Assembly: GCA_030427805.1 (NCBI GenBank)
Contig: JAUICP010000003.1
Coordinates: 195,758 to 259,757, forward strand
Source of the DNA: Bdellovibrionia bacterium
GTDB lineage: Bacteria > Bdellovibrionota > Bdellovibrionia > Bdellovibrionales > JAGQZY01
Direction: 5' to 3'
Length of the DNA: 64,000 bases
Made by a program: the position numbers and the translations under genes. The notes under the pieces were generated by a model. That model saw only the letters and a program-made list of their open reading frames with translations, did not search any database and was not told the origin of the DNA. Positions 21,985 to 48,703 of the stretch are shown here, piece after piece; the stretch's first letter is position 1; each line of letters begins with the position of its first letter.

Positions 21985-24561
21985 CTATTCGGGTAAGTAA
22001 AGGTATTGTGAAGGAACGACTTCTTTAACTTGGCTCGCAGATTCCCAATAGAGTTCAACAACCGCATGTCCACCATTCTCGTAGAACTCGATGAGAATGT
22101 CGTACTTTGTACCGCCGCTCAAAGTAATGGTGCCGCAATCCTCCCTTGGCGCGTGATCAGTCCAATTGATGACCACAGGAGTACTGTCGATATAAACTCG
22201 GATACCATCGTCGGAGCGGGTGCAAATTGTGTACTGCTCTGAGTACAAGGGCTTAATCTGACCTTCCCAACGGATTGAAAATTGATCTCCCACACCGAGT
22301 GGCGCTAGCCCCCTATCCCAATCGTAGTTTATTTGTGCATCAATCCTCTGGCCGACAAGGGTATCAAAGTTTCTTCCGTCGTGATAATAACCAAGTAAGC
22401 CAAACCCTTCATCAGCAATGGATTCTGGATCCGTATCCGAAACAGTCAGCACTGAGTTGCCGGTAAACCCACCGAGACTTGCAGAGATCGTAGTCGACCC
22501 TTCGGCCAAGGTTTGTGCAACACCCGACGACTCCGAGGCATTCGAAACCTTTGCTACCGTGGTATTACTCGAGACCCAAAGAACAACGTCCGTGAGCTCA
22601 CTACTTCCACCGTCATCAAATACACCATAGGCTTGATACTCAATATTCTTCCCGACATTTTGACTGGCATTACTTGGAACGACATTAATGGAGTCCAAAT
22701 TCGCTGGAGTAATAATGAGACTTGCCGTTTCGTTAACTCCAGAAAGGCTCGCCGTGATCGTTACATTTTGATGGGTGGTCCCCGTATAAGTATTGTTCAC
22801 GTAACCACCGTTACCCCCGCTCAATATACTTGCAAATCCAGTTTGAGAACTTGACCACTGTACGAGTTCGGTAACGTTGACTTCCGCACCACTATCGTAG
22901 ACCCCAATGGCCTCAAATTTTACATCTGTGGATTTAGAAATAAGAAGTTCAGGAGGGGAAATTCTTATTTCAGTAAGCGTTGCAGCTACGATGTTAACAG
23001 TCACCGACTGACTAACTCCATCAAGACTCGCGGTTACCGTTGCCGACCCAGAACTTCCAATAATTTGAATGCGACCCTGGCTCCCTTGGGTATTTGAAAC
23101 ACTAACGAGACTACCGTTAGAGCTCGACCAAACCACCGACTCTGTAATATCGGGAGTAGCACCACTGGCATAATTTCCCGTCGCTTCTAACTGAAAATAA
23201 CTTCCGGGAGGAATATCGAGGCTGGTCTCATTAAGACTGATTGTATTGAGTGTATCCGCTGAGGAGACGACACTTGCGTCAGCATCCATTCCCCCAAAGG
23301 CACCGGTGATCGTTGCGCTACCCGGCCCTACGAGCTCAACTTGGCCATTGGAAGTGACGATTGCGACACTTTCATCACTACTTGAATAGGTTGCGAAACT
23401 TGTAACATCCGAAGAGGACGAATCGCTAAGAATCGCCGTTAACTGAAGGTTTTGCCTCATCCCGACCAGGCCATTGATTACGAAGGGGGTCAGCTGGAGC
23501 TCGGTCACAGTGGCGGCCGAGACAGTCACGTCCAGAGTATCCGACTGCGCCCCATAGGTCGCTGTGATTTGTGCAGTACCAGCCGAGATTCCTGATATTT
23601 CACCTTTACTTCCAGATGTATCAGAGACGGTTAAAACACCGGGAGAATCAGAGGACCACGTTGCATATTCGGTGATATTTCGAAGACTCCCATCATCGTA
23701 GGTTCCGGTGAGAATTAAACTTTGCTCACCGCCTATGAATACATTCGGAGATTGCGGACTCAGAGCCACCGAAACAAGGTTGGCACTATTGACTTGGACC
23801 CCAAGTGATTCTGATTGCCCGGCAAAGCTCGCTTGAATAAGGGCTGAGCCACCACTGACACCTGAGAATAGATTTCCGCTAGAGGACAGGATGCCATTGT
23901 CGGACGAGGACCAACTTACAAAACTCGTTAGAGTTTTTAACTCGCCGGTATTGTAGAGGCCCCTGGCTGTTGCCGTGGCATTTTCGGAAACATTGATACT
24001 CGATTGATCGGACTCGACGAGAAGGTCTTGGAGAAAGGGACATGTTACAGAAATGTTACTGATATCACTTGTTCCCATGGTTCCACTGGCATTGGCGATT
24101 TGACAATCGAGACTTGGACTTGAAGGTTGCGTCTGAATACTGACTGAATAGGCCGCTCCTTCTTCGACTTCGGTGGCGAATTCGAAGGTCGAAGCTCCCG
24201 GACTCACATTGATTGTTTCAGCACCATTGAGTCGGAGTTGGAGAATTGAATGATCAAGTTGATTGATACTACCACCCACTTTGTGAGTCGGAGTCGGAGT
24301 CGGAGTCGGAGTCGGAGTCGGAGTCGGAGTCGGAGTCGGAGTCGGAGTCGGAGTCGGAGTCGGAGTCGGAGTCGGAGTCGGAGTCGGAGTCGGAGTCGGA
24401 GTTGGAGTCGGCTCGGCGGTCGGTGTTGGCGTAGGAATTCGCTCGGCGATATCTTCGAGATCATCAGTCGGTTGCTCAGCACAGGCCGACAAAACGACTA
24501 GCGCAACCAACACTAGAACCAACTTTAAGAGTTCAAATGATCTTCCATAAATCTTCATCAT
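21985..24561 (-). CDS. Lipoprotein with (Pro-Thr)n stalk, six BIG2-like repeats and PA14 domain
   Basis: An 858-residue surface or periplasmic lipoprotein. The signal peptide ends with the lipobox LSAC (Cys near residue 27). It continues with a (Pro-Thr)n stalk of about 21 units, then a Cys-containing Ig-like segment, six BIG2-like repeats (each marked by WSSS-type motifs such as VSWSSSD, ATWSSDS and VVWSSSN), and a C-terminal PA14-like domain ([12 protein letters not shown]...[30 protein letters not shown]), a carbohydrate-binding or adhesion module. No catalytic motif is seen. The stalk DNA is a hexanucleotide tandem repeat (24286-24411). The role is probably adhesion, as an inference. Confidence 0.8.
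24286..24411. repeat. Hexanucleotide tandem repeat encoding Pro-Thr
   Basis: About 21 copies of GGAGTC (GACTCC on the coding strand), nearly perfect, with one GTTGGA variant near the 5' end of the coding strand. Because the unit is six bases, copy-number change would lengthen or shorten the stalk without shifting the frame. Confidence 0.95.
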
Positions 24562-26580: not shown

Positions 26581-27699
26581 TTATTTGCTGACTTTGCGCT
26601 CACCGTGTCCGATGTACTCAGAAAGAGGACGGATGATGCGATTGTTCTCAGCTTGCTCGATAATGTGAGCTGCCCAACCCGTAATACGACTCATTACAAA
26701 GATCGGCGTGAAGAAATCGATTTCAAAACCCATCATGTAATAAGCAGGACCTGCAGGGAAATCCAAGTTTGGATAAATGTTTTTCTCAGCGATCATTGTT
26801 TCTGCTAAGCCATCGTACATTTTCATCCACTTTTGCTCACCCGTTGAATCGGCCATGAGCTGTGCGTACTTCTTCATAGTCGGAACGCGAGAGTCACCTT
26901 TCTTATAAACACGGTGACCAAAACCCATGACTTTTCTCTTGTCTTTAAGGGCCTGGAGCATCCAGTCTTTCGCCTTATCAGGATCACCGACCTCTAACAT
27001 CATGTGCATAACTTGCTCATTGGCACCACCGTGAAGAGGCCCTTTAAGAGCGCCAATTCCACCAGTGACAGCACTGTAAAGATCAGATGTCGTTGACGTA
27101 ATCACTCGAGTCGTGAATGTTGAAGCATTAAAGCTGTGCTCAGCATACAAAATCAAAGAAACATCGAAAGCTTTGATTGTGTCTTTATTAGGGACTTCGC
27201 CAAAACACATGTGAAAAAAGTTTTCCGCAATCGAAAGGTCTGTTTTTGGCTCGATATATTCCTTGCCCATTTTATGGCGGTAGAATGCAGCGATCGCCGT
27301 AGGAATTTTAGCAAGGAGGTTCATGGCCCGTTCGCGCTTGCGATCACTTCCCTCGTAGTCCCAATGCTCAGGATCTTCGCATCCGATAAAGCTAACAGCT
27401 GTGCGAATGGCATCCATAGGATGAGTCGTTGTTGGAAGTTCTTTGATGACATTGAGGCAGGCCTTGCTCAATGGGCGAAGAGATCGTTCTTTTTTCGTGA
27501 ACTCTTCGAGCTGAGAAGCGTTTGGTAAATCATCATTCCAAAGGAGGTAAGCGACTTCTTCAAAATTACAGTTTTCAGCGAGATCTTGTACGGGGTAGCC
27601 GCGATAAACCAACGAATTAATTTCGGGCATGACCTTCGATACAGAAGTCGTATCAATCACTGCCCCTTCTAAACCTTTATTTACATTTACTTTAGACAT
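26581..27699 (-). CDS. prpC: 2-methylcitrate synthase
   Basis: Citrate-synthase-family enzyme that condenses propionyl-CoA with oxaloacetate to 2-methylcitrate, the entry step of the methylcitrate cycle. It has the family landmarks INSLVYRGYPVQDLAE, HPMDAIRTAV, LYAEHSFNASTFTTRV (catalytic His region), GALKGPLHGGANEQVM and MGFGHRVYKKGDSR (second catalytic His). Length (372) fits the short type used for PrpC. It is the third gene of an operon with prpB and prpD. The operon context supports PrpC over a housekeeping citrate synthase. Its ATG lies 12 bases after the prpB stop. Confidence 0.92.
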   Translation of the reverse strand: MSKVNVNKGLEGAVIDTTSVSKVMPEINSLVYRGYPVQDLAENCNFEEVAYLLWNDDLPNASQLEEFTKKERSLRPLSKACLNVIKELPTTTHPMDAIRTAVSFIGCEDPEHWDYEGSDRKRERAMNLLAKIPTAIAAFYRHKMGKEYIEPKTDLSIAENFFHMCFGEVPNKDTIKAFDVSLILYAEHSFNASTFTTRVITSTTSDLYSAVTGGIGALKGPLHGGANEQVMHMMLEVGDPDKAKDWMLQALKDKRKVMGFGHRVYKKGDSRVPTMKKYAQLMADSTGEQKWMKMYDGLAETMIAEKNIYPNLDFPAGPAYYMMGFEIDFFTPIFVMSRITGWAAHIIEQAENNRIIRPLSEYIGHGERKVSK

Positions 27700-27711
27700 A
27701 CTTCCTCCGGA

Positions 27712-28617
27712 TTAGTTGTGTCCTTCTTGGGAAAAATTAAAAATATCTTTATCAAAATCATTGTATTCTTCGTAACGAACTATTTCGTAAAGGCGCTTTC
27801 GCGTTTGCATGCGATCGAGAATGGGTTCTTGCGTGCCCTTTTCTTTGATCGAACGGAAGCCATCTTCGACGGCCTTCATGGCTAAGCGCCATCCAGTTAC
27901 TGGATAAATCACCATGTTGAAACCCAGGTTCTCTAAAGTGGCTTTATCGAGAAGTTTTGATTTTCCAAACTCTGTCATATTGGCCAGCAATGGAACTTTG
28001 ATTTCTTTACGGAAGCGCTCAAACTCTGACTCGTTTTGAAGGGCTTCTGGAAAAATCATTTCGGCACCGGCGTCAACGTAAGCCTTAGCTCGAGCGATGG
28101 CATTATCCAACCCCTCAGAGGCCCTTGAATCGGTTCGCGCAATCAACAAAAACTTATCGTCAAACTTAGCATCGCTGGCCGCTCGAATTTTGCGACACAT
28201 TTCATCTTGGCTGACGATGGATTTATTATCGAGATGTCCACAGCGCTTTGGGTTGACCTGATCCTCGAGGTGGGCTCCTGAGAGTCCCAACTCTTGCATT
28301 TCAATCACCGTACGCGCCACGCTCATTGGTTCACCAAAACCCGTGTCGATATCAATGATCGAAGGAAGGTTGGTCACTCGAGAAATGGCCCGACCTCTTT
28401 GTGCCACTTCCGTCAAAGTCGTGAGACCAATATCAGGTAGGGCGAGATCTGTTGAGAGCACTCCTCCAGAAATATACACGCCATCGAATTCCAAATCTTC
28501 AATCAACTGCGCCACTAAGGGAGAAAAGGCTCCTGGAAATTGTAGGAGCTTTCCTGACTCTAGGTCCTCTCTTAGTTTTCTACGCTTTTGGCCCGGGGCC
28601 GTTGTTTCAAAAATCAT
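27712..28617 (-). CDS. prpB: 2-methylisocitrate lyase
   Basis: Cleaves 2-methylisocitrate to pyruvate and succinate. ICL/PEP-mutase family fold. The signature KRCGH (as PKRCGHL, with the catalytic Cys) occurs near residue 122, preceded by the metal-site DIDTGFGEP and followed by ARTDSRASEGLDNAIARAKAY and AEMIFPEAL. Length (301) is standard. It lies eight bases after prpD and 12 before prpC, all on the minus strand. Confidence 0.95.
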   Translation of the reverse strand: MIFETTAPGQKRRKLREDLESGKLLQFPGAFSPLVAQLIEDLEFDGVYISGGVLSTDLALPDIGLTTLTEVAQRGRAISRVTNLPSIIDIDTGFGEPMSVARTVIEMQELGLSGAHLEDQVNPKRCGHLDNKSIVSQDEMCRKIRAASDAKFDDKFLLIARTDSRASEGLDNAIARAKAYVDAGAEMIFPEALQNESEFERFRKEIKVPLLANMTEFGKSKLLDKATLENLGFNMVIYPVTGWRLAMKAVEDGFRSIKEKGTQEPILDRMQTRKRLYEIVRYEEYNDFDKDIFNFSQEGHN

Positions 28618-28625
28618 AGCATTCC

Positions 28626-30134
28626 TTAGAAAATTCCACGGTGGTCGCGCTCGTTCATTTCGAGTTGGGCCATCGGGATTTGTACGTTGAGAAGCTTCAC
28701 TTGATCAGCACTCAAGTTTGGAAGGTCTTGAACGAGATCAATAAATCGATTGCGCTCATCCTGTGTAATAATACCTTCAGTCAGGGTATCGAACTTCTTG
28801 ATGTAGTTTTCTCGAACAAAAGGACGGGCTCCCGCAGGGTGAGCATTTGCCACGCCAAGCTCATCTTCGATGACATCACCATTATTCATAGTAATAACAA
28901 CTCGGGCACCGAAACGCTTTTTATCAGGATTTGGATCGTGATAAGCTTCCGTCCACTTAGGATCTTCCACTGTGGAGATTTTATGCCAAAGAGCTACTGT
29001 CTCAGGACGTCCCGCTCTTTCTGGAGTGTAACTATTGACGTGGTGCCAAGAGCCATCTTCAAGGGCCACAGCAAAAATATACATAATTGAATGATCAAGT
29101 GTTTCGCGACTCGCCTTCGGATCCATTTTTTGCGGATCGCCAGCTCCTGTCCCGATGACGTAATGGGTGTGATGAGATGTATGAAGCACAATGCTTTTAA
29201 CATCTGAGAAGTTAGAAATCTTTTCACGCATTCTAAAAGCAAGATCGATCAAAGCTTGAGATTGGTATTCGGCTGAATGCTCTTTAGTGTAAGTTTCAAG
29301 AATGGCATCTTTTGCTTCACCCTTTTCTGGAAGAGGAACCACATAGGAAGCATCCTTTCCGCCGAGCATCCAAGCAATTACTGAATCTTCACCTTCATAG
29401 ATTGGACTCGGAGCCCCTTCGCCACGCATACAGCGATCGACGGCCTCGATGGCCAACTTGCTCGAGTGGGCAGGTGCAAAAGCCTTCCACGATGAAATTT
29501 CACCTTTTCGCGACTGGCGCGTTGAAAAAGAAACGTGAAGGGCTTGTTGAATCGATTGATAAACCGTATCTGTATTCAAGCCAAGCATCGTACCGATCCC
29601 CGCAGCACTTGCAGGACAAAGGTGCGCAATGTGATCTTTTTTGTACTCGTGCAGACAAATTCCCTTTACCAAATTGACGTGAAGCTCGTATCCCGTCGCA
29701 AGACCGCGAAGGAGCTCAGCTCCCGATTTACCTTTGGTCTGAGCCACTGCTAAGATCGGTGGGATATTATCACCGGGATGAGAATAATCGGCGGCCAAGT
29801 ACGTATCGTGAAAATCGAGCTCACGAACAGCTGTGCCGTTGGCCCAGGCGGCCCACTCTGGAGAGAAGGTCTGATCATTTGGCATTCCGAAAACCGTAGC
29901 TCCGCCATTGCGTGGATGACAAAGAGCCATGGAGCGTGCGTTAGCAACGGGTCTTCTGTTTGATGCAGCGATGGCAACTGAGGCGTTATCGATAATTCGA
30001 TTGATGATCATATCGGTAGCACCCGCTGAAACGGCGACGGGATCGGTGGCGACTTCAGCCATTTTCCACGCGAGTTGATCTTCTTTTGCTAGGGGTTCTT
30101 TAGAGGGGTAGACACGGACCTTGTGGTTCTTCAC
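28626..30134 (-). CDS. prpD: 2-methylcitrate dehydratase
   Basis: MmgE/PrpD-family dehydratase converting 2-methylcitrate towards 2-methyl-cis-aconitate. At 502 residues it is a full-length PrpD. Landmarks include a [21 protein letters not shown] region near residue 110, [13 protein letters not shown], and [20 protein letters not shown] in the second half. The start is GTG at 30134, with AAGGAG upstream. It is the first gene of the operon. An AcnD gene is not in the window, and no PrpR-type regulator is adjacent, so control must come from elsewhere. Confidence 0.93.
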
Positions 30135-33959: not shown

Positions 33960-36900
33960 ATGAGAAAACTAGGTCTTATAAAAAAATCGAACGTGAGCTA
34001 CTTAATTCTGCTAATCAGTCTGAGCTTTGCTCTGGCCAACTGTACCTTTTATAAGCCCGATCAAGAGGTTCCCGTTCCCGATGATAACGATTCGATTCGC
34101 AAAACCTTTTTTCTCGGCGAAGCCTTTAGCAGCGGAACTGAGGTATCGAGCAAGACCTTTCTTTGCGGCTGGGCCCCAGTTGTAGAGACTGGCTGGGCCG
34201 CCCATCGAGCGAACTACCACATGTTTCATTCGAACACCCACTGTAATGTTCGCTTTCAAATTACAGAACGAGCTCTTATCGCAAAAAGGATTAATCCGTC
34301 CTTTCCCGATCAGCCCGACAAGTGGGCCAACATGCTCGAAATTCCCATCGAAAAACACTATTACTTAGAAGCGGCCAAAGATGGTCGCGGACGAGATACC
34401 AATCAACTCGTAGAAAACAGCAGTCGAAGTCACTGGTCGCGACGACCCTATATTAGACTGAATCTCAAGGGTCTAAACATCAAGAGTGGCTTTGAAAACC
34501 TCCTTTCTGCTGGATGGTTTTGGAGTGGATCTCCTCGCATCGTCGATGTCTACGATGTTGAATGGGACCCCGAAACTGGTTTTCTAGGACTCACTGTATA
34601 CGCTCAGTCTGAACAGTACGGCGAAAACTTGCAGGGTCGCATTCGCGTGAATTTTAAGGCCTTCGAACACAATCCCAACTTCGTAAAAACTCCCATGGAC
34701 CCAACGGTTCAAAAGTACATGAATATCCTTCATATTATGGGGCAAAAGGCCGATGGTCTTTACCAACTTCTCTATGCCGCCCACTGGGATTTAAGCAAGC
34801 AACATAAGGTCTACCTTAGTCATGTTCCAGACAAATATATAGAGACCGTTAAAAATGTCGTCGAGAAATGGAATGATGCTTTTGTCGATGTGGGAGCTGT
34901 TCCCGAGGGGCATAAAGTATTTATTCCTGAGGTTAAAGAACTCAAATATCCTTTTGATTTGCGATACCCGAGCATTTACTGGGTCGAAGACCAAGAAATA
35001 TCCGCCCGCTCTCCCCTCGGCGTCGGTCAAACCCATGCCGATGTTCGCAACGGTGAAATCCTCTGGGGTGGAATCGTCATATACGGCGGAATGATTGAGC
35101 GTTATATTAATAGATATATAGCGCCGAGCGCTCCATCGTCTGCGACTATGGCCCGCATAAGCCCCTATCGAATTCTCGGTCTCGAAGAAAGAGAGCTCCC
35201 CTTCCCACGATCTCTCGATTATACTGGGCAAGCTCTAGCCGGCTTTACGGGTCAATCCCTTGTTGGCGACTATAGAAATCTCATACAATTTCAACTCGAC
35301 GAGCTCCAGGGACAGACAAGTACTGATGCCACCAATCGTAGAGCCGAATTGAGCCGAATGCTCACTGACCTTAATGATGACTCTTCCATCTCTCGCAGTG
35401 AAATAGAAAACATCGCTGGCTCACTGAATAGTCTTATCGGTCGCTACCAACACGATGTTCAGGCTGAAATTAGCAATAAATCCCTAGAAGACTATCTTTA
35501 CCTCCCAGGTTACGAAGAAAACGCCGAGACCCAGGCACAAGAAGAATTGCTACGGTCTGACCCTGAAAACTCACTTCCAGAAATTCCTGAAGCGGTTATG
35601 GCTGCAAGAAATGTATTTGGACTTGATCGTAATTTCGAAATGATGTCGACACAATGGATGGCTTCTACTGAACGCGGTGAAACTCCAAATGTGAATGATG
35701 CCATTGAGTCTGTCATTACTGATCTCACCATGCACGAATACGGACACTTCTTAGGACTCGGACATCAGTTTAAAGGAAACCTCTTACCCGATCCTGAGCG
35801 AGTTCCACCGGCGATGTATCAAGCGATGGCCGAAATGGCGACCGAAGAGGCCGGGTACAATTACTTTTCGTCGATCATGGATTATCGCCATGGAACGACG
35901 GAGGTTCACTCTGATCTCGAAAAAATCAAACCTGGCGAACACGACAAGTTAGTCCTGCGCTATCTTTACAACCAAGAATACCCTGGCTATAAAACGGGCT
36001 CCGGTGCAGAAACCTTTTCGTTCTTTAAAGTCCCAGCTGATGGCCGCATTCCGCAATTCACTTGTTCTGATCAACCAGCCACTGCGAGTAAACCCTATAA
36101 TCCAAACTCAGGAGAAGTGGTTTATCAATCGATTCCTTGTGATGAAGACTCAACAGAAGCCTATGAAGTTGCTTACTTCCCATCTTGTAACGATATGGAA
36201 GCGAGCTACTACTACGATCCTATGTGTAACCGCTGGGACCGAGGTACAACCTATCAAGAGGTAGCAAACAACTACTGGAAAGATTTAACAGATAACCTTA
36301 TTCAGTACCTTTACTCGTTTACAGACAACTCTGCCGGTGCAGATCGAATCGAAGGCTACCTTTGGTATAAAGCGATATCGATGACCGGTCGAATTCGCCT
36401 TTTTTACGACTACATGAGAAGAAAGTTTGAGCCCGAAATCCAAAGAATTTCCGAAGATCAACAAGCGCTCTATCAGTTCTCTACCGCTTGCTCAAAAGAA
36501 AATGTTGAGGAGATCGAGCACCCGCTTCTCAGAGAAATTTTCAGTCAGAACTCTGAATTCAAAGATCTCTGCGAAACCAACAAACAGAACATAGAAGAAT
36601 TTAAGAAGATCCTCACTAAACCACTGGTGGATTCAACACGCTACAACCACGAAGACTACTACCTCCCAGGAGGAATCCGTGGAGGAGATCAACGTCGAGA
36701 CTTCTCACGTTTTCTAGGGACCTGGTCACAAATGACAAACCTGCCACTCAAGGTTTCGTCTCTCTTTCAATTGATGTCTCCAAAGGTGATGACTCCTTTT
36801 GGCTACGCATTTTATTACGGCCAATCAGACGCCAACTACTTTATGGGATCGCTCTACCCGAGAGAGTATACGGACACTCTCGGTTCTGCCTTAACTTCAA

Positions 36901-37655
36901 ACCTTCGTTTTCAATCCCTTGGTGATGAGGCGACCTTTGTCGGTAAAGCTGTTTCTTGGATGGGCTATCTTTCTGGTTGGTCACGCACAAATAACGATAA
37001 CCATAGATTCCCTCTTCGATATATGGAGAAGATTTACGATCAAACAAAACTTGAGCCACAAGTAGCCGTTCTTATTCTACAAGGAATCGACAGCGGTACT
37101 CCTGAACTCTATAAGAGGTTTAAACTCACGATATTTGACCCTCTTTCGCGAAAAGAAATTGATGGCCAAGATGCCTACATACTTCCAGAAGGTCACATCG
37201 TCGCTCGAGCCAACGATATGATTATTTATCCGCTGACTCCAATCAAGTTCTTCAGCGATTCAGCAGCCTATTCTTTTGCCTACATGGTCACCATCAATCG
37301 CAGCGAGGACGATCAGCTTGCTGAACTCGGAGTTAAAGAAAAACTCCTCACTAAGTACAATGATGTACTTAAGTCTTGTATTGAAGGTGATAAGGGTCTT
37401 AATCAGTATTTTACGACGACTCCCCAATTTGAGGGTTTTCGCATTCCTAAGGGAATTGCCACTTCGACCGAACTCGATCGAATTTTTAAGCGAAGTATTC
37501 AAACAGAATTTAACAAATTCGAAGAAATCACTGGTGTCAGTGAGGATAATTGCTTCGAATCGACAAAAGGAATTGCCGCCGCACTATCGGCAGCCGGCCT
37601 ACTCAATGGCTACTGGTGGTTCCCGTATATCTTTAGGGTGAATGTTAGTGAATAG
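33960..37655 (+). CDS. Giant metzincin-type zinc-protease lipoprotein
   Basis: A 1231-residue lipoprotein. The signal peptide ends with lipobox LANC (Cys28). The zinc motif HEYGHFLGLGH (His592, Glu593, His596, His602) fits HExxHxxGxxH, and a Met-turn candidate SSIMDY (Met640) follows at a metzincin-like distance. The N-terminal 570 residues and the C-terminal 590 residues carry no family I recognise. The latter includes several Cys pairs likely to be disulfides. Predicted to be a surface or periplasmic protease. The substrate is unknown. It overlaps the next gene by 14 bases and begins a three-gene operon of huge lipoproteins. Confidence 0.8.
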   Translation: MRKLGLIKKSNVSYLILLISLSFALANCTFYKPDQEVPVPDDNDSIRKTFFLGEAFSSGTEVSSKTFLCGWAPVVETGWAAHRANYHMFHSNTHCNVRFQITERALIAKRINPSFPDQPDKWANMLEIPIEKHYYLEAAKDGRGRDTNQLVENSSRSHWSRRPYIRLNLKGLNIKSGFENLLSAGWFWSGSPRIVDVYDVEWDPETGFLGLTVYAQSEQYGENLQGRIRVNFKAFEHNPNFVKTPMDPTVQKYMNILHIMGQKADGLYQLLYAAHWDLSKQHKVYLSHVPDKYIETVKNVVEKWNDAFVDVGAVPEGHKVFIPEVKELKYPFDLRYPSIYWVEDQEISARSPLGVGQTHADVRNGEILWGGIVIYGGMIERYINRYIAPSAPSSATMARISPYRILGLEERELPFPRSLDYTGQALAGFTGQSLVGDYRNLIQFQLDELQGQTSTDATNRRAELSRMLTDLNDDSSISRSEIENIAGSLNSLIGRYQHDVQAEISNKSLEDYLYLPGYEENAETQAQEELLRSDPENSLPEIPEAVMAARNVFGLDRNFEMMSTQWMASTERGETPNVNDAIESVITDLTMHEYGHFLGLGHQFKGNLLPDPERVPPAMYQAMAEMATEEAGYNYFSSIMDYRHGTTEVHSDLEKIKPGEHDKLVLRYLYNQEYPGYKTGSGAETFSFFKVPADGRIPQFTCSDQPATASKPYNPNSGEVVYQSIPCDEDSTEAYEVAYFPSCNDMEASYYYDPMCNRWDRGTTYQEVANNYWKDLTDNLIQYLYSFTDNSAGADRIEGYLWYKAISMTGRIRLFYDYMRRKFEPEIQRISEDQQALYQFSTACSKENVEEIEHPLLREIFSQNSEFKDLCETNKQNIEEFKKILTKPLVDSTRYNHEDYYLPGGIRGGDQRRDFSRFLGTWSQMTNLPLKVSSLFQLMSPKVMTPFGYAFYYGQSDANYFMGSLYPREYTDTLGSALTSNLRFQSLGDEATFVGKAVSWMGYLSGWSRTNNDNHRFPLRYMEKIYDQTKLEPQVAVLILQGIDSGTPELYKRFKLTIFDPLSRKEIDGQDAYILPEGHIVARANDMIIYPLTPIKFFSDSAAYSFAYMVTINRSEDDQLAELGVKEKLLTKYNDVLKSCIEGDKGLNQYFTTTPQFEGFRIPKGIATSTELDRIFKRSIQTEFNKFEEITGVSEDNCFESTKGIAAALSAAGLLNGYWWFPYIFRVNVSE

Positions 37656-40600
37656 GATAGTTATAATTCTCACATTCCTATCTTTTGCTATCACCGCTTG
37701 TGATAGTAAAAAAGTGACCCGTCTGGATCATGAGAACAGACTGAGCCCAGAGGTTCGTCAAACTCGTGTGCTTGAGGCCGATGCCGAAGAAGTTCTCGCC
37801 CAATTTGATGCTGATCAGGTGGAAGCCTCTGTACGCAATGAAGCACTCAGCGATAAGTCGGCAGAAGCCATCTTTAATGAAATTGTCGAGCCTCTGTTTA
37901 GCGGTCTTATGAAAGCAGAAGTTCTCGAACAACTTCACATTCGCTTTGAGCTAAAAACCATGCGCCTCATTAGGTCCATGGACACGGCTCTTCACGCCAT
38001 TTTACAAAAAAGCCCCGAAAGTCTTTCTGACGAATTTCTCGAAAATTATTACCAAGTCGTTTCTTACGGTTGTACACAGAGAATGCGTGAGTGCAAATTT
38101 GAGAGAATCTTTAAGGGCAGCGCTTACTCTGCCTATGTCCTCCTCGAGTATGTTTCACGCAAGGCAATCGCTGTTAGGGATTCTGCTTGCCGTTCGGAGC
38201 TGTGCCTTGAAGCGACCCAGAAAGAGCAGTTGCGGCCATTTAGAGACCTTTACCAGGCGATTCTTTTGACCTACGAAATCAAGCCTCGTTCAGAAATGCC
38301 GCGACTTAATTTCATATACCTCAACTTCTTTAAGGGCTACCAAGCGTGGTTGATTCATGAATATGCTGAAACCCTTGGTAGACCTGCCAACGAGATTGAA
38401 GCTCTCGATTATAGGCAATATGCTCCGCTCTCAGCACAAATCGACCTTTTTAACTCGATCATCAATAACTTTGAGGTCGGCGACCCCTACTCTCCAGAAT
38501 TTCGAGCTTTTATCGATAACTTTAATCCTTGGAATTATAGTGAACGTGAAAGCTCTGGTCTGCAGCTAGGTACAGCACGAATGTTTGATTTCGCTTCACA
38601 GTACTACCTCTACGACAGAGAAACTGGTGAACTCAACCCACAGTTAAAAGAACAGATTAGAAACTACCAAGAAAATGGTAACGGTACCAACCCTAGCTTT
38701 TATCAAGAAATTCAACGAATTCTCGAAAAAACACCTGGATTCTTCTCTAATTATGGTATTGATCTCGATGAATACAGCCCTGATAAGCTAGCGAATGAAT
38801 ATTTCTTTATTATTGACCGACTTTATAATCAGCATATCTCATCAGAGTACGCCGATCGAATTTGGGCTAACTCACGTAAAGACAAAGATCTCCTTGTTAG
38901 TTGGATAATTAAGTACTTAAAAATTGAATTCGCAAAAACCATCTATTTAACTAATGAAGGTTTTACGGATATTTATCGGGCTGAAAACTTCTCTAATAAT
39001 GAGATGTTTGAAGTGACAGTTAATGAAAGCTACTCGCTTAACAATCTTTGGGACCGTTTAATTCTCGGAACGGAAATGCTTAATATCTTTGCAAGAGCTT
39101 CTATACCTAGCTTTCAGCAAAATTTCTCAAGTTTTAGAGAACTTCAGGATTTCACCAATAGCTTAAAATCCAATATCAAGATTCTAAGTATCTATCCGAA
39201 CATGATGATTCTCGGGTATTTCTTATCCGCCCTCGACTCGCCATTCACATTTACTTCTTGGTTCGGACAACAAATCGAAGTCGATCCCACTATCGTTATC
39301 CGCTATATGCTTAACGGTGGTTTTCGCCCGTGGTTCAACTATGCCAAAGACTCCGTCAAACTCTCAAAGGGTGAAATCGCTCTGGCCTACTACTACATCA
39401 TCGTCTCAGAGAGCTTAGATGTTTTCCGTTTTCAAAACGAATCTACAGGTGAAGAGTCAATTACACGGACAAAATTCTTCGAGAAAGTCCTCGGCCAATA
39501 CCTCGATCCGATTCGAACGGATCTCGATGGAAAAGTCAGAGACTTCAATGACAACTTTCTCAGTGAGAACAACCTCAATGAACTTAACCTCTTTTGCGAG
39601 AATCCGAGTGCCTATAAATCTATTATCGACTACTTAGATCTTGGAGAAAACGTACTTATTGGATCCGGAGATATTGGTGGCTCTCCCTTCGGACTCGCCT
39701 TTAAAATCTACGGTTGGTCCCATGTCAACGAGTTTCAATCGGCTGCCTTTGGTTACGAAAAGGAAATCATCAGAGTTCGAAATCTGATCGATATTTACTT
39801 TCAGTATTTGCGAGACAAAGGAGAGTACCAAGAAGGTTCCCCTGAAATCCAACAAATCAATCGAATTATATCTGAGATTGAAGAACTTCGAGAAAAATAC
39901 ATTGGGATGCTTTACTACATTCACCGCATGGTCAACGATTGTAGTGATAAAGTGTACAGGCACACTCGATCTCGTGTCTTTGATATCCTAAGGGATGAAA
40001 TTAGCTACTTCAAACAAATCTATCAAAGTGCCAAGACCCACGGTGAAAACTTCGATCGAGCGAAGTTCGAAGAAGAGGTTGGACCTTTGTTAGGGGCCGA
40101 TAATATCGAATATCCCCAGTATGTAATTACTAAGTACGGAGCCTTTGAAAGAATCACTAAAAGACTCAATAGTACACTCGAATCAGTAACAAATTCTCCC
40201 TACACATTAACCGACAGTATAGGGGTAGAAACACGGGTGATCGAGCTTGAAGACACCGATGGTATTGATTTTATTAATAGTCCCAATAGCCGTCAGGTAA
40301 GAATCGGTGATTCAGAAGTCGATTTTGTACGCAACGCCCTGCGAATCCTCGTTTATAACTCAGGATCAATTTTTAAGTGGCTCGAGTACTACAAAAACGG
40401 AAAAGACGTCCGTTACAAAGAAAAGGTCATTCAGAATTTCTACAAATTGAGCCCTTTTAAAGTTCCGAGTGAGTTGGCGGCGCAAAATCCAGATGTTTGT
40501 AGCGAAACGGTCCCCAATGATAGCGGCGGCCAAGATTGCATCGCTAAAATCGAGCCCCAGGAACTCCTCGAAGAAGCAGTTCGATCCAGAGAAATCGTCA

Positions 40601-41205
40601 GTCTACCCGAAGAATATAAAGACGTACTCTTCTATATCGGAAAGACGGATTTCATGCCTCGAAACGATATCAAAGACTTTATCTTTGTACGAAGCTCTGA
40701 TGCCGTTATTCCGATTTTTGAAAACGTTTATCGAGGCACTCTCTTTGACCAAGGTTATCGGTTCGAAGACGGTACTGGAGTCATGAAAGATGCTGAGCAA
40801 GCCGGACTTGCTTTAAGGGATATTGTATACTTAATCTTCCCTCCTAAGACTTACTTCTGTCAAAGTGTCTTCGATTCCTACGACAGTGTCGTTAAGGATC
40901 GATTTGAAAAAATTCGCCGTCTCGCTGATGTCATTCGAGAAAATCGCAGTTCGAATGCTTATATGGATCGGATTAATGCGATTAATCTAGAGCTTTCCAT
41001 TGGCTCAAGCATCGATACAACAGACTTTGTCGGTATCGGCAGCCAAGCTGGCGCATTTCGCTTTGAAGACAATCAGACATACATCAATGATCGCGATTTG
41101 AGAAATGCCAGTAATAGAGAATCACTATTTACTCGCGAGTCTAAGAACTTTTTCAATAACAACAATCACTTGTCACTGTGCACACAGGGAGAGGAGGGAA
41201 TTTAA
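37642..41205 (+). CDS. Giant lipoprotein A, no recognised family
   Basis: An 1187-residue lipoprotein (lipobox ITAC, Cys20). The sequence is mostly alpha-helical and rich in Asp/Glu, Tyr and Phe. Isolated Cys residues (for example CTQRMREC near residue 140 and DC near 760) could form disulfides. No catalytic motif is visible. It overlaps the protease gene by 14 bases and abuts the next gene, so all three are probably translated from one message. Segment order and several motifs (FFIIDRLYN, YLKIEFAKTI, VDFVRNAL...LVYNSGSIFKWLE) recur in the following gene, suggesting an ancient duplication. Function is unknown. Confidence 0.8.
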   Translation: MLVNRIVIILTFLSFAITACDSKKVTRLDHENRLSPEVRQTRVLEADAEEVLAQFDADQVEASVRNEALSDKSAEAIFNEIVEPLFSGLMKAEVLEQLHIRFELKTMRLIRSMDTALHAILQKSPESLSDEFLENYYQVVSYGCTQRMRECKFERIFKGSAYSAYVLLEYVSRKAIAVRDSACRSELCLEATQKEQLRPFRDLYQAILLTYEIKPRSEMPRLNFIYLNFFKGYQAWLIHEYAETLGRPANEIEALDYRQYAPLSAQIDLFNSIINNFEVGDPYSPEFRAFIDNFNPWNYSERESSGLQLGTARMFDFASQYYLYDRETGELNPQLKEQIRNYQENGNGTNPSFYQEIQRILEKTPGFFSNYGIDLDEYSPDKLANEYFFIIDRLYNQHISSEYADRIWANSRKDKDLLVSWIIKYLKIEFAKTIYLTNEGFTDIYRAENFSNNEMFEVTVNESYSLNNLWDRLILGTEMLNIFARASIPSFQQNFSSFRELQDFTNSLKSNIKILSIYPNMMILGYFLSALDSPFTFTSWFGQQIEVDPTIVIRYMLNGGFRPWFNYAKDSVKLSKGEIALAYYYIIVSESLDVFRFQNESTGEESITRTKFFEKVLGQYLDPIRTDLDGKVRDFNDNFLSENNLNELNLFCENPSAYKSIIDYLDLGENVLIGSGDIGGSPFGLAFKIYGWSHVNEFQSAAFGYEKEIIRVRNLIDIYFQYLRDKGEYQEGSPEIQQINRIISEIEELREKYIGMLYYIHRMVNDCSDKVYRHTRSRVFDILRDEISYFKQIYQSAKTHGENFDRAKFEEEVGPLLGADNIEYPQYVITKYGAFERITKRLNSTLESVTNSPYTLTDSIGVETRVIELEDTDGIDFINSPNSRQVRIGDSEVDFVRNALRILVYNSGSIFKWLEYYKNGKDVRYKEKVIQNFYKLSPFKVPSELAAQNPDVCSETVPNDSGGQDCIAKIEPQELLEEAVRSREIVSLPEEYKDVLFYIGKTDFMPRNDIKDFIFVRSSDAVIPIFENVYRGTLFDQGYRFEDGTGVMKDAEQAGLALRDIVYLIFPPKTYFCQSVFDSYDSVVKDRFEKIRRLADVIRENRSSNAYMDRINAINLELSIGSSIDTTDFVGIGSQAGAFRFEDNQTYINDRDLRNASNRESLFTRESKNFFNNNNHLSLCTQGEEGI

Positions 41206-41207
41206 CA

Positions 41208-44200
41208 ATGTCCCTCTCTACGTTCCGAAGACAAAGTCGATACCTTCTGTTCAGTTTGCTTTTTCTCTTGGCGGCCTGTGACCTCCCGACTCGATCAATA
41301 GTTCACCATGAACAGGCTATCGATAGTGATCGAAACCTCATTTCAGACGGAGAGGAAGAACTACAATTTCCTCATCACCTCCTCAGACTCGACTCCGAAG
41401 GAGATGATCCTCGTTTTGTTGTCAACGAATATCAAAGTTTCCTCGTCGATCGAGACCAGCTCATAGCACAGTACAAAACCAATCAAGAGGAGACCCGAGA
41501 CCTCATTCAAAAATGGTATGAGAACATTCTCAAACTAGAAAACAGCGAAAGCGAAGTCGAGTTCGTTATCGAGACCCTGCTTTACAATTGTACAACACGA
41601 GCCAATGACTGCCCTCTTCTACCTGCTCTGGCAAGTTCTCCGCTCTTTGGCCTTGTTCTCGAAAAGTGGGTAGAAAAAAGTCAGTCACAACTCGACTCAG
41701 AAGAAAAAGTGATTCGGTTTTACACCGTACTTCATCTCTACCTAGAAAGACGCTCGCGAGACGTTAACAAGTCCCTCTTTTTCTCGTACCTCATGAATAT
41801 CAGGAAACTTGAGAACCTCTTTGCCAGCACCGGGCGCGATCGATTGGCTCTTGTCAATCGAGAAGCCTTCAATGAGTTAACGGCCGAAATACTCGATCTC
41901 TTCCTTAAAAACGGTTCTGAAGAAGAAATTGTCAACTTAGTGCAGGAACTCAATGTCTTTAACCTCTCTCGCGACGACTTAAGGGATCCCCTCTCACGCC
42001 TTATTTTTCAGAAAGGTTTAGAACTCGGCCTTTATATTGAAAATGAAATCAATCCGGCTGTTTCTGCCGCCATTGAATCCCGGCGAAGTCAAACAGATAG
42101 CTTTGAGTCGCGGCTTAACACGATTATCTTACAGTACCCCTTAATGGTTTCAAACCTCGAACTTCAACGATCAATTCCGAAAAATGAATACTTTTGGATT
42201 ATCGACTCCCTATTCTATAACCGACTCGGAATTGACGAAGCGAATTGGATTTGGCAGGCCAGCCAAAAGTCATTGTCTGACTTCAACAGTGTTAGTTATG
42301 AATATTTAAAAATTCAACTGGCCCATCTCATTGCTTCAACAAACGAAAAACAAGCACAGGTTTATACTGATGATTCACTTGCCAAGAGCGAAATCATTGA
42401 AGAAGCGATTCGCGCCTCGGAGCTTTCAACGGTTAAAGTCTTGAGCTTTTTGGCTCAGGTTGATCGCATTCGCGGTTTTAGTGAGTCTACGGGAGCCCTT
42501 AGAGAAATCGAGGGACTTGACAATCGAGGGGTCAAAGCCTTTTTCAATTACCTCAAAGAAAATATTAAATTTCTGATTTCCTACAATCACCACTTAATGG
42601 CCGTCTATTACATATCAAAAAGGCAACTCGAATCACGAGTGAAGGTCGGCGGAATTTCTGCCACCACAGGAAAATACTTGAGTATGATTCGGACTTTTAG
42701 AGACGACCACTTGAGAAAGTTCCCACTTCTTTTCAAGTATGGAGTCACTACAGATAATTACTCAGCCGGAGAAGAAAAACTCAATTTTTACCAACTGGCC
42801 TACGTCTTTGATTTTGCCCTAAAAACGCTGAGCTTTGATCAACTGGGTATCGATCCCGTGGACTATATTAAAATCTTCTACGAGGTCGTCATTGAATCTC
42901 GACTGCAAAAGCTACTAGAAAAAGAAGATTTCTCAATTAAAAGACATTTTAACAATAGTTATTACCAGGAATTTCTCTCCTTTTGTGAGGCAGTAAAAGG
43001 TGTCGGAGGCTACAAGGCCGAGGCGACTCTCACTTCGTTTGCCTACAAACCGACCCTCGGAGTATTTGCTTACGCACTCCCTGCACAATCTCCGAGAGGC
43101 GATGGGCAGAAGGCATTGAATCCCTACGCCATCACAATGGCCGAAGAACTTGAAGCCTATAAGCTCATTATTTTGCGAGATATCCAGTTTGCCGACGCCC
43201 TGTCGATCAATCTCAAAGAGTATTTACAAGAGAAGCAGGGTCTTAGCGAAGATGAAGTGAATCAGAGATTTCGTGCCGTTGAGTCCCGCCGAAGTGCGGC
43301 CATGGAACAGATGAATCAATTTGTAAGTAACGTAGGGTTATTGGCCAATAACTACAATGAATGTTATGCCCAAGCCATTACCAATGATAAAGAAGTCATG
43401 ACTTCAATTCTAAAAAATGAAATTGAACACATTCGTAGAGTTCACCGCGCTATGGTTGAAATTCGTAGAGGCGGAAGTCCTGACCTCAGCTTTTTAAGTT
43501 TTTCCGGCTATCCAAATTCTTTTGACGGCTACGATCAACTTACCAGTGACTACTACCTCTACCACAAGTTTGACCTACTCATCCGAGCTAAAGAACATAT
43601 GGAAGGCATCTCCGATTATGCCCGCGTAAAAATCCCAAGAGATTTTGCTCGAGATGGCGAAACCCGAAGCCTCTACACCGAACGACAAAATCAAAGAATC
43701 AGCTTCAAAGAAGATGAAGATGAATTTATTCGAAGTGTTCTTCAAGCAACTAATCAATTTGTTTTATGGCTCGAAGACTCCCACATGAACTCCATGATTT
43801 TTCCTCTTCGCGATACCTATATGAGTCTCAATGCTGCCCAACGGCTGTTTTACCACCTCGGGCGCGAGAGCGAAATTCCCGCCCAATTGACGGCACAAAG
43901 TATGATTGATCACGTTGTTCGACTTAAGGACTATATCTCCATGAGCGACGACCTCAAAGAGATCTTAACTTACTACGGCAGGGATACTCTTTTTGAAATC
44001 GAACAACACTCGAGTCTCGTTAATATTCTTTTAAATGACGAATCTCTTTACCCAGAACCTTACTTCTATTGGCTCCTCTACAATGCGAGCTACGAGCGAC
44101 TTGGAGCCTATTTTGTACGACCTTCTGATGATGTCACGGCCCAAGGGGCTATTAATGACGACCCTTTAAAGGTCGACACAATCGTCTATCCTCACGTCTT

Positions 44201-44582
44201 TGAGGACTCGATCAACTATGCACAGGTGGCAAGGGATGAAGAACATGCTAAATTTATTTTTCCAGTGTCACCCAAGCTCAGAGAGTCACTCGATTCAATG
44301 CTGAAAACTCGGGTTGCGGCCGAAACAAAGTCTTTTAACGATATTCTTATTCAAGTTAAGGAGTTTGAGTGTCGGGATCGCCAACTCCCCATCGGTCATC
44401 CAGACAAGATGGTTTACGAATTTGAAATCGGCGAACCCCTCTATGAGTTCTATGTGGATTATTCAAGGTGGCCCGGGCGCTTCTTCCGCGGACAGCGGTC
44501 TTTCAATCGTAGAACGAGCAATTTCTATGTCGAAACCACTCCGCAAATTGATATCACTCCTCCGACCTGTTTACCGGAGTAG
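41208..44582 (+). CDS. Giant lipoprotein B, paralogue of lipoprotein A
   Basis: An 1124-residue lipoprotein from the ATG at 41208 (GAGGAGGGA just upstream, two bases after the previous stop). The frame is open to 41178 but that extension overlaps the neighbour. Lipobox LAAC (Cys24). Mostly helical. Matches to the previous gene are seen in order: CTTRANDC, FWIIDSLFYN, YEYLKIQLAHLI, NEIEHIRRVHRAM and DEFIRSVLQATNQFVLWLE. These are consistent with divergent paralogy, although overall identity is clearly low. It ends the operon, and no terminator was obvious. Likely part of one envelope complex with the upstream protease. Confidence 0.8.
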   Translation: MSLSTFRRQSRYLLFSLLFLLAACDLPTRSIVHHEQAIDSDRNLISDGEEELQFPHHLLRLDSEGDDPRFVVNEYQSFLVDRDQLIAQYKTNQEETRDLIQKWYENILKLENSESEVEFVIETLLYNCTTRANDCPLLPALASSPLFGLVLEKWVEKSQSQLDSEEKVIRFYTVLHLYLERRSRDVNKSLFFSYLMNIRKLENLFASTGRDRLALVNREAFNELTAEILDLFLKNGSEEEIVNLVQELNVFNLSRDDLRDPLSRLIFQKGLELGLYIENEINPAVSAAIESRRSQTDSFESRLNTIILQYPLMVSNLELQRSIPKNEYFWIIDSLFYNRLGIDEANWIWQASQKSLSDFNSVSYEYLKIQLAHLIASTNEKQAQVYTDDSLAKSEIIEEAIRASELSTVKVLSFLAQVDRIRGFSESTGALREIEGLDNRGVKAFFNYLKENIKFLISYNHHLMAVYYISKRQLESRVKVGGISATTGKYLSMIRTFRDDHLRKFPLLFKYGVTTDNYSAGEEKLNFYQLAYVFDFALKTLSFDQLGIDPVDYIKIFYEVVIESRLQKLLEKEDFSIKRHFNNSYYQEFLSFCEAVKGVGGYKAEATLTSFAYKPTLGVFAYALPAQSPRGDGQKALNPYAITMAEELEAYKLIILRDIQFADALSINLKEYLQEKQGLSEDEVNQRFRAVESRRSAAMEQMNQFVSNVGLLANNYNECYAQAITNDKEVMTSILKNEIEHIRRVHRAMVEIRRGGSPDLSFLSFSGYPNSFDGYDQLTSDYYLYHKFDLLIRAKEHMEGISDYARVKIPRDFARDGETRSLYTERQNQRISFKEDEDEFIRSVLQATNQFVLWLEDSHMNSMIFPLRDTYMSLNAAQRLFYHLGRESEIPAQLTAQSMIDHVVRLKDYISMSDDLKEILTYYGRDTLFEIEQHSSLVNILLNDESLYPEPYFYWLLYNASYERLGAYFVRPSDDVTAQGAINDDPLKVDTIVYPHVFEDSINYAQVARDEEHAKFIFPVSPKLRESLDSMLKTRVAAETKSFNDILIQVKEFECRDRQLPIGHPDKMVYEFEIGEPLYEFYVDYSRWPGRFFRGQRSFNRRTSNFYVETTPQIDITPPTCLPE

Positions 44583-46744: not shown

Positions 46745-48703
46745 CTAGGAAATGACGGACTTCAAGGTCAACTGACACTCAGAATGCAGTTCAGGTTCCG
46801 TATCGAGAAGCTCTAAAATCCGTTTTTTGAGCTCCAAGGGATTGGCACTTGCCTTGACGATATTAGCGATCAGGCTCGCACAGGTCCTTTGGTACATAGC
46901 CCAGGTCTTCGACCTCAAGACGACAAAGAGCTTGTCCACAAGGACCTCTCGCTCGCTATCGTTCAGGTAGGTATTAAGATCCAGACTCTTCGCTCCATCT
47001 AAAACTTGATCGACAAAACCAATAAGGTTGGTCTCTGAAAGAAACTCAGGATTGACCATAGCTTCGAAAAGACATTCTAAAAAATGCTCCTTACTACCGA
47101 AAAGTGCTTCGATCGCCTCAGGCTCAAAACTCAAAGGGAGTCCCAGTTGAACGTCTCTAGGGCCCTTTTGACTCCTCTTTAAGCACCAGAAAGCCTCGGA
47201 GCGAAGTCCTTTTGAGCACTTGGGACTCCAAGCAATCTGAGTCATTTCCTTGAGAAGGTTTAGGTCGTAATGAGCTTTCAAAACCACCTCAGAAATTCGA
47301 AGAAGAGAGGTGACTAACTCTTCATTTTTGACATCCGCTTCAGCGAGACTTTTTGCCAACAGCGCAGCCCCAAGCTTTTCTTCTCTCGCCTTTCTCGTAA
47401 AATGATCTTTCAGTTTTGCAACTAAATTGAGTTCAATAGCCTTTTCAAATACAGCTTCAACTCCTAAAAAGTTTTTCTTTAGTAACAGTTCGAGTAGTAA
47501 ATTTTCAGCTTTTTCGGGATCGAGGGCGGTTAAAAACTCGAGAGACTCCTCTTCTGAAAGTTGATCGCCAACAAGCCTCAATATCTTCGCTCCCAAGGCG
47601 TCTTTGTTGTTTCGCAATTCAATCAAAAGCTCTTTTTTTAATTCATCCTTAACTTCACCACGGTATGATTGAAGAACCCGATCTTTCACTTCTATGGGCA
47701 GTGTAGAAAAATTTTTAAAACAGAGTGGAGAGCCAAGGCTTGCCAGTTCTAGCCTCACCAAATTCCTCGCTTCAGACTCTGCCATTGATTCGAATTCGAG
47801 TTCGAGTTTTGATGGGTCTTCGAGATAGAGGAGCCACGACAATCGCAAGTCAAAATCATCTGACTGAATGGCTTCTTCTCTTACCTTTTCTAGTACGGTT
47901 TTAACTTCGTCGCCAAGAGCATTGATCTTATTGGGGTTTAAAATGAGAAGAGTCAGTGTTAACCAAGACTTCATTTGCGGAAATTCCTCGATGAGGCCCA
48001 ACAAATGGTCAGTATCGATACTTGGAGCGTACCTTCGTCTTAGCCCAAGGCTAAAAAGATTTCTCCATTGCCAACTCACAAAAAGAGCGAGGGCCTCAAC
48101 CAAGAGGCGTCCTTGATTATAGAAAAGCATTCTCAGGTTTTCATGCCAATCTTCATTGAATTTTCCCTGACGAACCAAGGCAATGAGAGCCAGGTTTTTT
48201 GCCAAATAGCTGGAACTTGATTTTAAAATAGACTCTAGATCCAAATGCACGACATCTTTATTTTTCTTGAGCGCTTCGAAATCGGGATTATTCATTGGAA
48301 TGAGGCTTATGAACTCGTCCTCCAAGAGAATATCAAATCCCCTTTGCTTCATAAATTTCTCACAGAAACGAATCTCCATGAGCAACTTTTCGACCAGGGT
48401 CCACTGTTGTAAATATTGGGAACTGAGGTGAGTTTGCTCCTCCTTGGATAACGAGGTTATTCTCTCGGCAATAGAAAACTTATCGACACCACCCGACTTG
48501 AGCATTCGACCAAGAATGAATTGGTTGGATTTTAGAAGCGAAAAGTTGCAGTTCTCACAAGTTTGATGTTCCACCCCTTGCCAATGAAGACACCATACAC
48601 AGCAATTTAGCTTCTCCAGAGCCCCCTTGCAGACCGAACAACGCTCACTAGTCTGCGGCGAGCTAAATTTGGCATTACAGTCACGGCAGGAATACCTCGT
48701 CAC
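46745..48703 (-). CDS. Zinc-ribbon protein with long helical repeat region
   Basis: A 652-residue protein. The first 55 residues hold Cys pairs in CRDCNAKF, CSVCKGA, CCVWC and CENCNF, consistent with one or two zinc ribbons. The remainder is Leu-rich and strongly helical, with repeats of about 35-45 residues resembling HEAT-like solenoids. I recognise no enzymatic motif. The start is GTG at 48703, overlapping the upstream gene's TGA (GTGA), so translation is coupled. The protein is cytoplasmic by sequence. It may be a scaffold, but no function is claimed. Confidence 0.7.
   Translation of the reverse strand: MTRYSCRDCNAKFSSPQTSERCSVCKGALEKLNCCVWCLHWQGVEHQTCENCNFSLLKSNQFILGRMLKSGGVDKFSIAERITSLSKEEQTHLSSQYLQQWTLVEKLLMEIRFCEKFMKQRGFDILLEDEFISLIPMNNPDFEALKKNKDVVHLDLESILKSSSSYLAKNLALIALVRQGKFNEDWHENLRMLFYNQGRLLVEALALFVSWQWRNLFSLGLRRRYAPSIDTDHLLGLIEEFPQMKSWLTLTLLILNPNKINALGDEVKTVLEKVREEAIQSDDFDLRLSWLLYLEDPSKLELEFESMAESEARNLVRLELASLGSPLCFKNFSTLPIEVKDRVLQSYRGEVKDELKKELLIELRNNKDALGAKILRLVGDQLSEEESLEFLTALDPEKAENLLLELLLKKNFLGVEAVFEKAIELNLVAKLKDHFTRKAREEKLGAALLAKSLAEADVKNEELVTSLLRISEVVLKAHYDLNLLKEMTQIAWSPKCSKGLRSEAFWCLKRSQKGPRDVQLGLPLSFEPEAIEALFGSKEHFLECLFEAMVNPEFLSETNLIGFVDQVLDGAKSLDLNTYLNDSEREVLVDKLFVVLRSKTWAMYQRTCASLIANIVKASANPLELKKRILELLDTEPELHSECQLTLKSVIS

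Follow-up and report, generated by a model that had tools for sequence, protein, structure and literature searches.

A lipoprotein metzincin encoded with two giant helical lipoproteins, and its candidate outer-membrane barrel partner, in the Bdellovibrionota

The M-B-C operon

The window is the whole stretch of 64,000 nucleotides that was analysed, taken from a contig of a Bdellovibrionia bacterium (GCA_030427805.1, JAUICP010000003.1, positions 195,758 to 259,757). Near its middle lies an operon of three genes on the plus strand, here named M, B and C. The end of M overlaps the start of B by 14 bp, and a gap of 2 bp separates the stop of B from the start of C. An alternative GTG start of C at 41178 would lengthen the protein to 1134 aa. 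All three products carry an N-terminal signal peptide and a lipobox cysteine, as judged by pattern and by eye, and the same holds for nearly all of their relatives. A preliminary description made from the letters of this DNA had proposed three overlapping or abutting lipoprotein genes of 1231, 1187 and 1124 codons, and both the coordinates and the lipoboxes agree with it. The features of the locus are as follows.

33960..37655, plus strand: gene M, open reading frame with lipobox; putative lipoprotein metzincin, 1231 aa
34041..34043, plus strand: predicted lipidated Cys28 of M (FALAN-C), from the sequence; lipobox kept in relatives
35733..35765, plus strand: putative zinc site HEYGHFLGLGH of M, residues 592-602, from the sequence; His and Glu invariant in all intact M
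35877..35879, plus strand: Met640 in the Met-turn SIMDY of M, from the sequence; Met and Tyr columns invariant
37642..41205, plus strand: gene B, open reading frame; alpha-helical lipoprotein, 1187 aa, predicted alpha-solenoid, homologous to C
37699..37701, plus strand: predicted lipidated Cys20 of B (FAITA-C), from the sequence; Cys in 21/21 family members
39000..44400, plus strand: mosaic segment covering B in its 3' half and C almost completely, from nucleotide identity to the sister genome
41208..44582, plus strand: gene C, open reading frame from ATG; lipoprotein of 1124 aa that is paralogous to B over its full length
41277..41279, plus strand: predicted lipidated Cys24 of C (LLAA-C), from the sequence; Cys in 14/14 family members

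The operon sits among unrelated housekeeping genes, with a sodium-dependent nucleoside transporter upstream and a converging class-I tRNA synthetase of the Glu/Gln type downstream. Promoter and terminator scans gave no convincing signal at the operon. Chance or artefactual reading frames are ruled out because four paralogous operons exist, the genes are conserved in a sister genome and M has a dN/dS of 0.01.

Other parts of the window hold three minus-strand genes that, as read from the sequence, resemble a methylcitrate cycle (26581-30134; citrate-synthase-like, methylisocitrate-lyase-like and PrpD-like), and genes for large proteins of secreted type, in which bacterial Ig-like, PA14 and fibronectin type III domains occur (21988-24561 and 59486-61513). 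Two further proteins of 652 and 756 aa (46748-48703 and 7084-9351) matched no Pfam family at E<=1e-5, and the window diverges sharply from the sister genome at 46.8-48.3 kb.

M as a divergent metzincin

The motif HEYGHFLGLGH and a Met-turn candidate 38 residues further on had already been picked out in M, and these fall at residues 592-602 and at Met640, counted from His602, within SIMDY. The pattern HExxHxxGxxH is present in every intact M relative examined and [ST][IV]M[DG]Y is recognisable in nearly all. The zinc motif is whole in every complete M, which argues that M is an active protease.

In family searches, window M scored 21.3 bits against the Pfam family DUF4953 (PF16313), for which the cut-off is 24.2, while its DNA barely passed that cut-off in another search with 24.4 bits. 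The M paralogue on contig C1 (45.5 bits) and a solitary homologue (56.6 bits) both exceed it. All of 17 M relatives matched the family (best E=5.7e-12), as did all of eight solitary relatives (best E=3.7e-23). M is best placed as a divergent branch within the DUF4953 Met-zincin family, and its metzincin fold is predicted from the sequence. It shares with that family the catalytic motif HExxHxxGxxH and the Met-turn, but the M branch has long N- and C-terminal regions of its own as well as the lipobox, and it comes with two giant helical partners and a barrel. A Peptidase_M48 domain was matched by none of 17 M proteins, which show the metzincin signature instead. Searches of an open-access collection of papers turned up none on the M-B-C operon, DUF4953 or DUF5117.

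B and C as a paralogous pair

The similarity of B and C, noticed in the preliminary description as collinear segments, is far beyond chance, and the two proteins are homologous over their whole length. BLASTP aligns them with E=4e-13, and a profile-profile comparison with hhalign, using four copies of each, gives a probability of 100% and E=5e-56 over 991 columns. Three pairs of cysteines, by position, are conserved in B (144/151, 652/767 and 953/966), and C retains the first two of them (128/135 and 593/719). That these pairs persist where sequence identity is about 20% suggests disulfide bonds, and hence a location of B and C outside the cytoplasm. In some copies of B and C the lipid-bearing cysteine is followed by Asp, a residue that is not conserved. 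In E. coli an Asp at position +2 keeps lipoproteins in the inner membrane; by analogy these copies would be inner-membrane proteins, a rule that is not established for Bdellovibrionota.

Membership of B and C in known families, which might have had jobs unrelated to a protease, found no support in Pfam, NCBIfam or, by sequence, the PDB. B and C hit no informative Pfam or NCBIfam family, a SusD-like Pfam family was matched by none of 14 B proteins and not by window C, and B found no solved structure in the PDB by sequence. An AlphaFold model of B built from 14 sequences (pLDDT 77.8, pTM 0.66) is nearly all helical, with long paired helices, and B is predicted to be an alpha-solenoid. The best Foldseek match of this model has E=9e-4 and a TM-score of 0.09, and the best VIA-align match is the exportin Cse1 (Z 6.9, 131 residues, rmsd 3.8). 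Such matches are weak and mixed, consisting of HEAT-like solenoids (exportins, FANCI, cohesin SA) that are generic for helical proteins. The modelled B has no clear structural relative, and the lack of a better match is no proof of a new fold.

D, a candidate barrel partner

In most distant genomes B and C are spaced by about 750-1320 bp, and the interval contains a single open reading frame, D. Fourteen loci of distant genomes show the order M-B-D-C, and a further one shows D-M-B-C. D proteins have about 300 aa (range 280-465 aa), start with a signal peptide, are strand-like in composition and mostly end in an aromatic residue; the Pfam family OMP_b-brl was weakly matched by one of nine. From the signal peptide, the terminal aromatic, the strand-like pattern and this one weak match, D is judged to be an outer-membrane barrel.

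With a threshold of E<=1e-15, D occurs in 18 of the 144 genomes of the class, and 17 of these belong to the 18 genomes that have M and B, all counts being uncorrected for relatedness. The exceptions are a 74%-complete genome (G114) that has no D, and one (G091) that has D together with an M fragment at a contig end. Operons without D occur in the window's genus, where each genome has four of them, as well as in G110, G271 and G304; all of these genomes do contain a D gene somewhere. The window's genome contains exactly one D gene, on contig C11 and about 75 kb from the nearest operon. This sole D (L125 9171-10385; G000:C11, minus strand) has 404 aa and a very lysine-rich N-terminal extension.

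Known barrels offer only partial comparisons. Slam proteins (type XI) are outer-membrane barrels that bring lipoproteins to the surface. D would resemble them as an outer-membrane barrel acting with lipoproteins, but the Slam barrel domain was matched by none of nine D proteins at E up to 1, and D has no large N-terminal repeat domain. Nor was any Pfam family of TonB-dependent transporters or their plugs matched among the D proteins. In the same bacterial group, the major outer-membrane protein of Bdellovibrio bacteriovorus, PopA, has been described as a 16-stranded pentamer with a plug (PMC12228718). D, likewise a putative outer-membrane barrel, is shorter than PopA.

Distribution and inheritance of the operon

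The 4.5-Mb genome of the window carries three further complete M-B-C operons (contigs C1, C3 and C11), all with lipoboxes and in identical order. Their proteins are 34-38% (M), 20-23% (B) and 22% (C) identical to the window copies. Proteins resembling helix-turn-helix-type regulators are encoded near two of the four operons (L020 18436-19365 and L021 4277-5227), where chance is a possible explanation.

A scan of named genomes recovered 20 loci, all in uncultured Bdellovibrionota. Within the class, B is present in 18/144 genomes and 13/69 genera (uncorrected for relatedness), and strong M matches (E<1e-80) occur in exactly these 18 genomes. Phylum-wide, B is found in 22 of 369 genomes. One of these is a short fragment, and a strong M is present in each of the remaining 21. 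Operons of the type M-B-D-C or M-B-C lie beyond the class in G270, G271 and G304, the last being a 1.8-Mb genome (L127, L104, L105) with three operons, two with D and one without, and an enlarged B of 1341-1634 aa. A conserved order of the trio, named at the outset as a sign of a system, is seen in distant genomes, and co-occurrence elsewhere, on which the idea of a system had been made to depend, is found in 21 Bdellovibrionota genomes that carry the trio.

Trees of M, B and C were compared over 23 shared operons, using a quick method and FastTree. Identical splits number 11 of 20 across all three trees and 14 of 20 between M and B, as against at most three when labels are permuted. The four copies in the window's genome each belong to a separate, old subfamily, and the C11 copy clusters with an operon of another class in all three trees. 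Both facts rule out a recent tandem amplification as the source of the four operons. That the M-B-C trio is a real inherited unit is well supported.

A simpler metzincin-barrel pair

Solitary M-like lipoproteins, mostly of 1100-1750 aa and members of DUF4953, occur in 130 of the 144 genomes of the class, and a barrel family related to D in 105. Of the 82 best barrels, 67 have a solitary metzincin within 6 kb; in every one of these cases both genes share a strand, and in 63 the barrel is upstream, with about 1% expected by chance for each. The pair was observed in 62 genomes, among them probably Bdellovibrio itself; genus g7, probably Bdellovibrio, has the pair while B and C are absent. The barrels beside solitary metzincins are related to D (hhalign probability 98.3%, E=2.5e-14), and an alignment of 633 columns (E=4.5e-41) shows solitary and operon M to be homologous. 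Given these two homologies, the trio looks like a metzincin-barrel pair that has been elaborated by a duplicated giant helical lipoprotein.

The window's genome also has two solitary distant relatives of M. One pair, about 190 kb from the window (L022 5309-10593; G000:C3, about 446-451 kb), consists of a 1420-aa DUF4953 metzincin lipoprotein and a same-strand barrel upstream, and a second lies near G000:C11:118893-123838, where the open reading frame has 1796 aa. A variant in another genome (G106; L128 337-6933 and L129 148-6489) occurs twice and has, in this order, a lipoprotein of 720-807 aa, a metzincin lipoprotein of 1045-1060 aa and a D/E-type barrel.

Selection and recombination

Compared with the sister genome of the same genus (G075), M has a dN/dS of 0.01, B one of 0.03-0.04, C one of 0.06-0.09 and D one of 0.04, the saturated replaced segment of the window operon being left out. 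All four proteins are under strong purifying selection, and the ranking of constraint, M over B over C, is the same in four of four operons. Nucleotide identity between the window operon and the sister is about 90-97% outside the segment at about 39000-44400, falls to about 50-85% within it, where synonymous divergence is saturated, and recovers in the tRNA synthetase gene. From this profile, the 5.4-kb segment at 39000-44400 is best explained as an allelic replacement by recombination.

Proposed assembly and its alternatives

The long co-inheritance of the genes through ancient duplications, together with the near-identical distributions of M, B and D, argues that M, B and C, and D with them, are functionally coupled. 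The preliminary description had gone further and seen the three proteins as one surface complex. The part of this that stands is the placement in the outer envelope, to which the lipoboxes, the paired conserved cysteines and the outer-membrane barrel partner point, whereas surface exposure and assembly go beyond that evidence.

On balance, we hold it to be somewhat probable that M, B, C and D form one proteolytic assembly of the outer envelope. M, as a putative lipid-anchored metzincin of the outer membrane, would do the cutting. B and C, as paired giant paralogous lipoproteins with a predicted alpha-solenoid fold, would act as scaffold and as arms that present the substrate, while D, embedded in the membrane, would anchor the assembly or give passage through the outer membrane. 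The four M-B-C sets of the window's genome would probably share its single unlinked D. Because C evolves fastest and sits in the recombined segment of the window operon, it may be the subunit that faces the most variable partner. What the analysis shows is the linkage and gene order, the homologies, the conserved catalytic residues, the lipoboxes, the co-inheritance and co-distribution, the selection and the helical model of B; the physical complex, the sharing of D, active proteolysis, the orientation towards surface or periplasm, the substrate and the roles of B, C and D are inferred. Points that speak against the assembly are the unlinked D of the window's genome, the score of window M close to the DUF4953 cut-off, and the Asp behind the lipid-bearing cysteine in some B and C.

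The combination of lipoproteins with an outer-membrane barrel also fits a periplasmic quality control system, in which M would sit at the inner face of the outer membrane and clip misassembled outer-membrane proteins or lipoproteins much as BepA does, with D as docking site and B and C as client-binding arms. BepA, LoiP and YcaL of E. coli (peptidase family M48) are zinc peptidases of the envelope whose work involves outer-membrane barrels, and M48 enzymes have HExxH without the third histidine of metzincins and without the Met-turn. M would be like them as an envelope zinc peptidase with a barrel, but it has the metzincin signature and no M48 match. The extreme purifying selection on M (dN/dS 0.01) is housekeeping-like, and many genomes of the order have the metzincin-barrel pair, both of which suit such a function. 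The form with B and C, however, is patchy (18/144 genomes) and sometimes multi-copy, unlike a core system, and the fast evolution of C and its recombination in the window operon suit contact with the outside, so that quality control appears rather unlikely, if the best of the alternatives.

Another reading is that the proteins catch and digest protein at the cell surface, for nutrition or in predation, B and C binding protein of the prey or the environment, M cutting it and D importing the peptides. The model for this is peptide uptake by SusCD/RagAB of Bacteroidota, where a helical lipoprotein is encoded together with an outer-membrane barrel, a TonB-dependent transporter that has about 1000 aa and a plug. 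Giant helical lipoproteins, a protease and a barrel in one unit, the variability of C and the presence of several divergent copies per genome, as in substrate-specific uptake systems, all agree with capture and digestion. Yet the likeness to SusCD/RagAB ends with the helical lipoprotein and barrel in one unit, since B and C, at about 1150 aa, are not SusD-like, a protease is included here and D, with about 300 aa, falls far short of the length of a TonB-dependent transporter. Neither a SusD-like nor a TonB-plug family was matched, and the common metzincin-barrel pair does without B and C. Capture for nutrition or predation is accordingly an unlikely function, somewhat less likely than quality control. 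That the genes have a promoter and a history in common but act separately, M having unrelated targets and B and C being structural surface proteins or substrates of M, is improbable in view of the long co-inheritance via ancient duplications and the near-identical distributions of M, B and D.

Returning to the joint proteolytic assembly, its wider form can be offered tentatively: the Bdellovibrionota may possess an undescribed class of outer-membrane proteolytic machine that consists of a lipid-anchored metzincin and a dedicated small barrel, to which some lineages would have added a new family of giant alpha-solenoid lipoproteins, two in number. In this form the target specificity would be set by the fast-evolving C, and a single barrel could serve several M-B-C sets. 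The M-B-C-D assembly appears to be undescribed, while M comes from a known protease family.

Significance

The analysis joins into one heritable unit, around a recognisable enzyme, proteins that had no informative Pfam family (B, C and D) or only a domain of unknown function (M). Families present in most genomes of the order thereby receive roles that can be tested, and the unit opens a route to ask how a predator-related group of bacteria processes proteins at the outer membrane.
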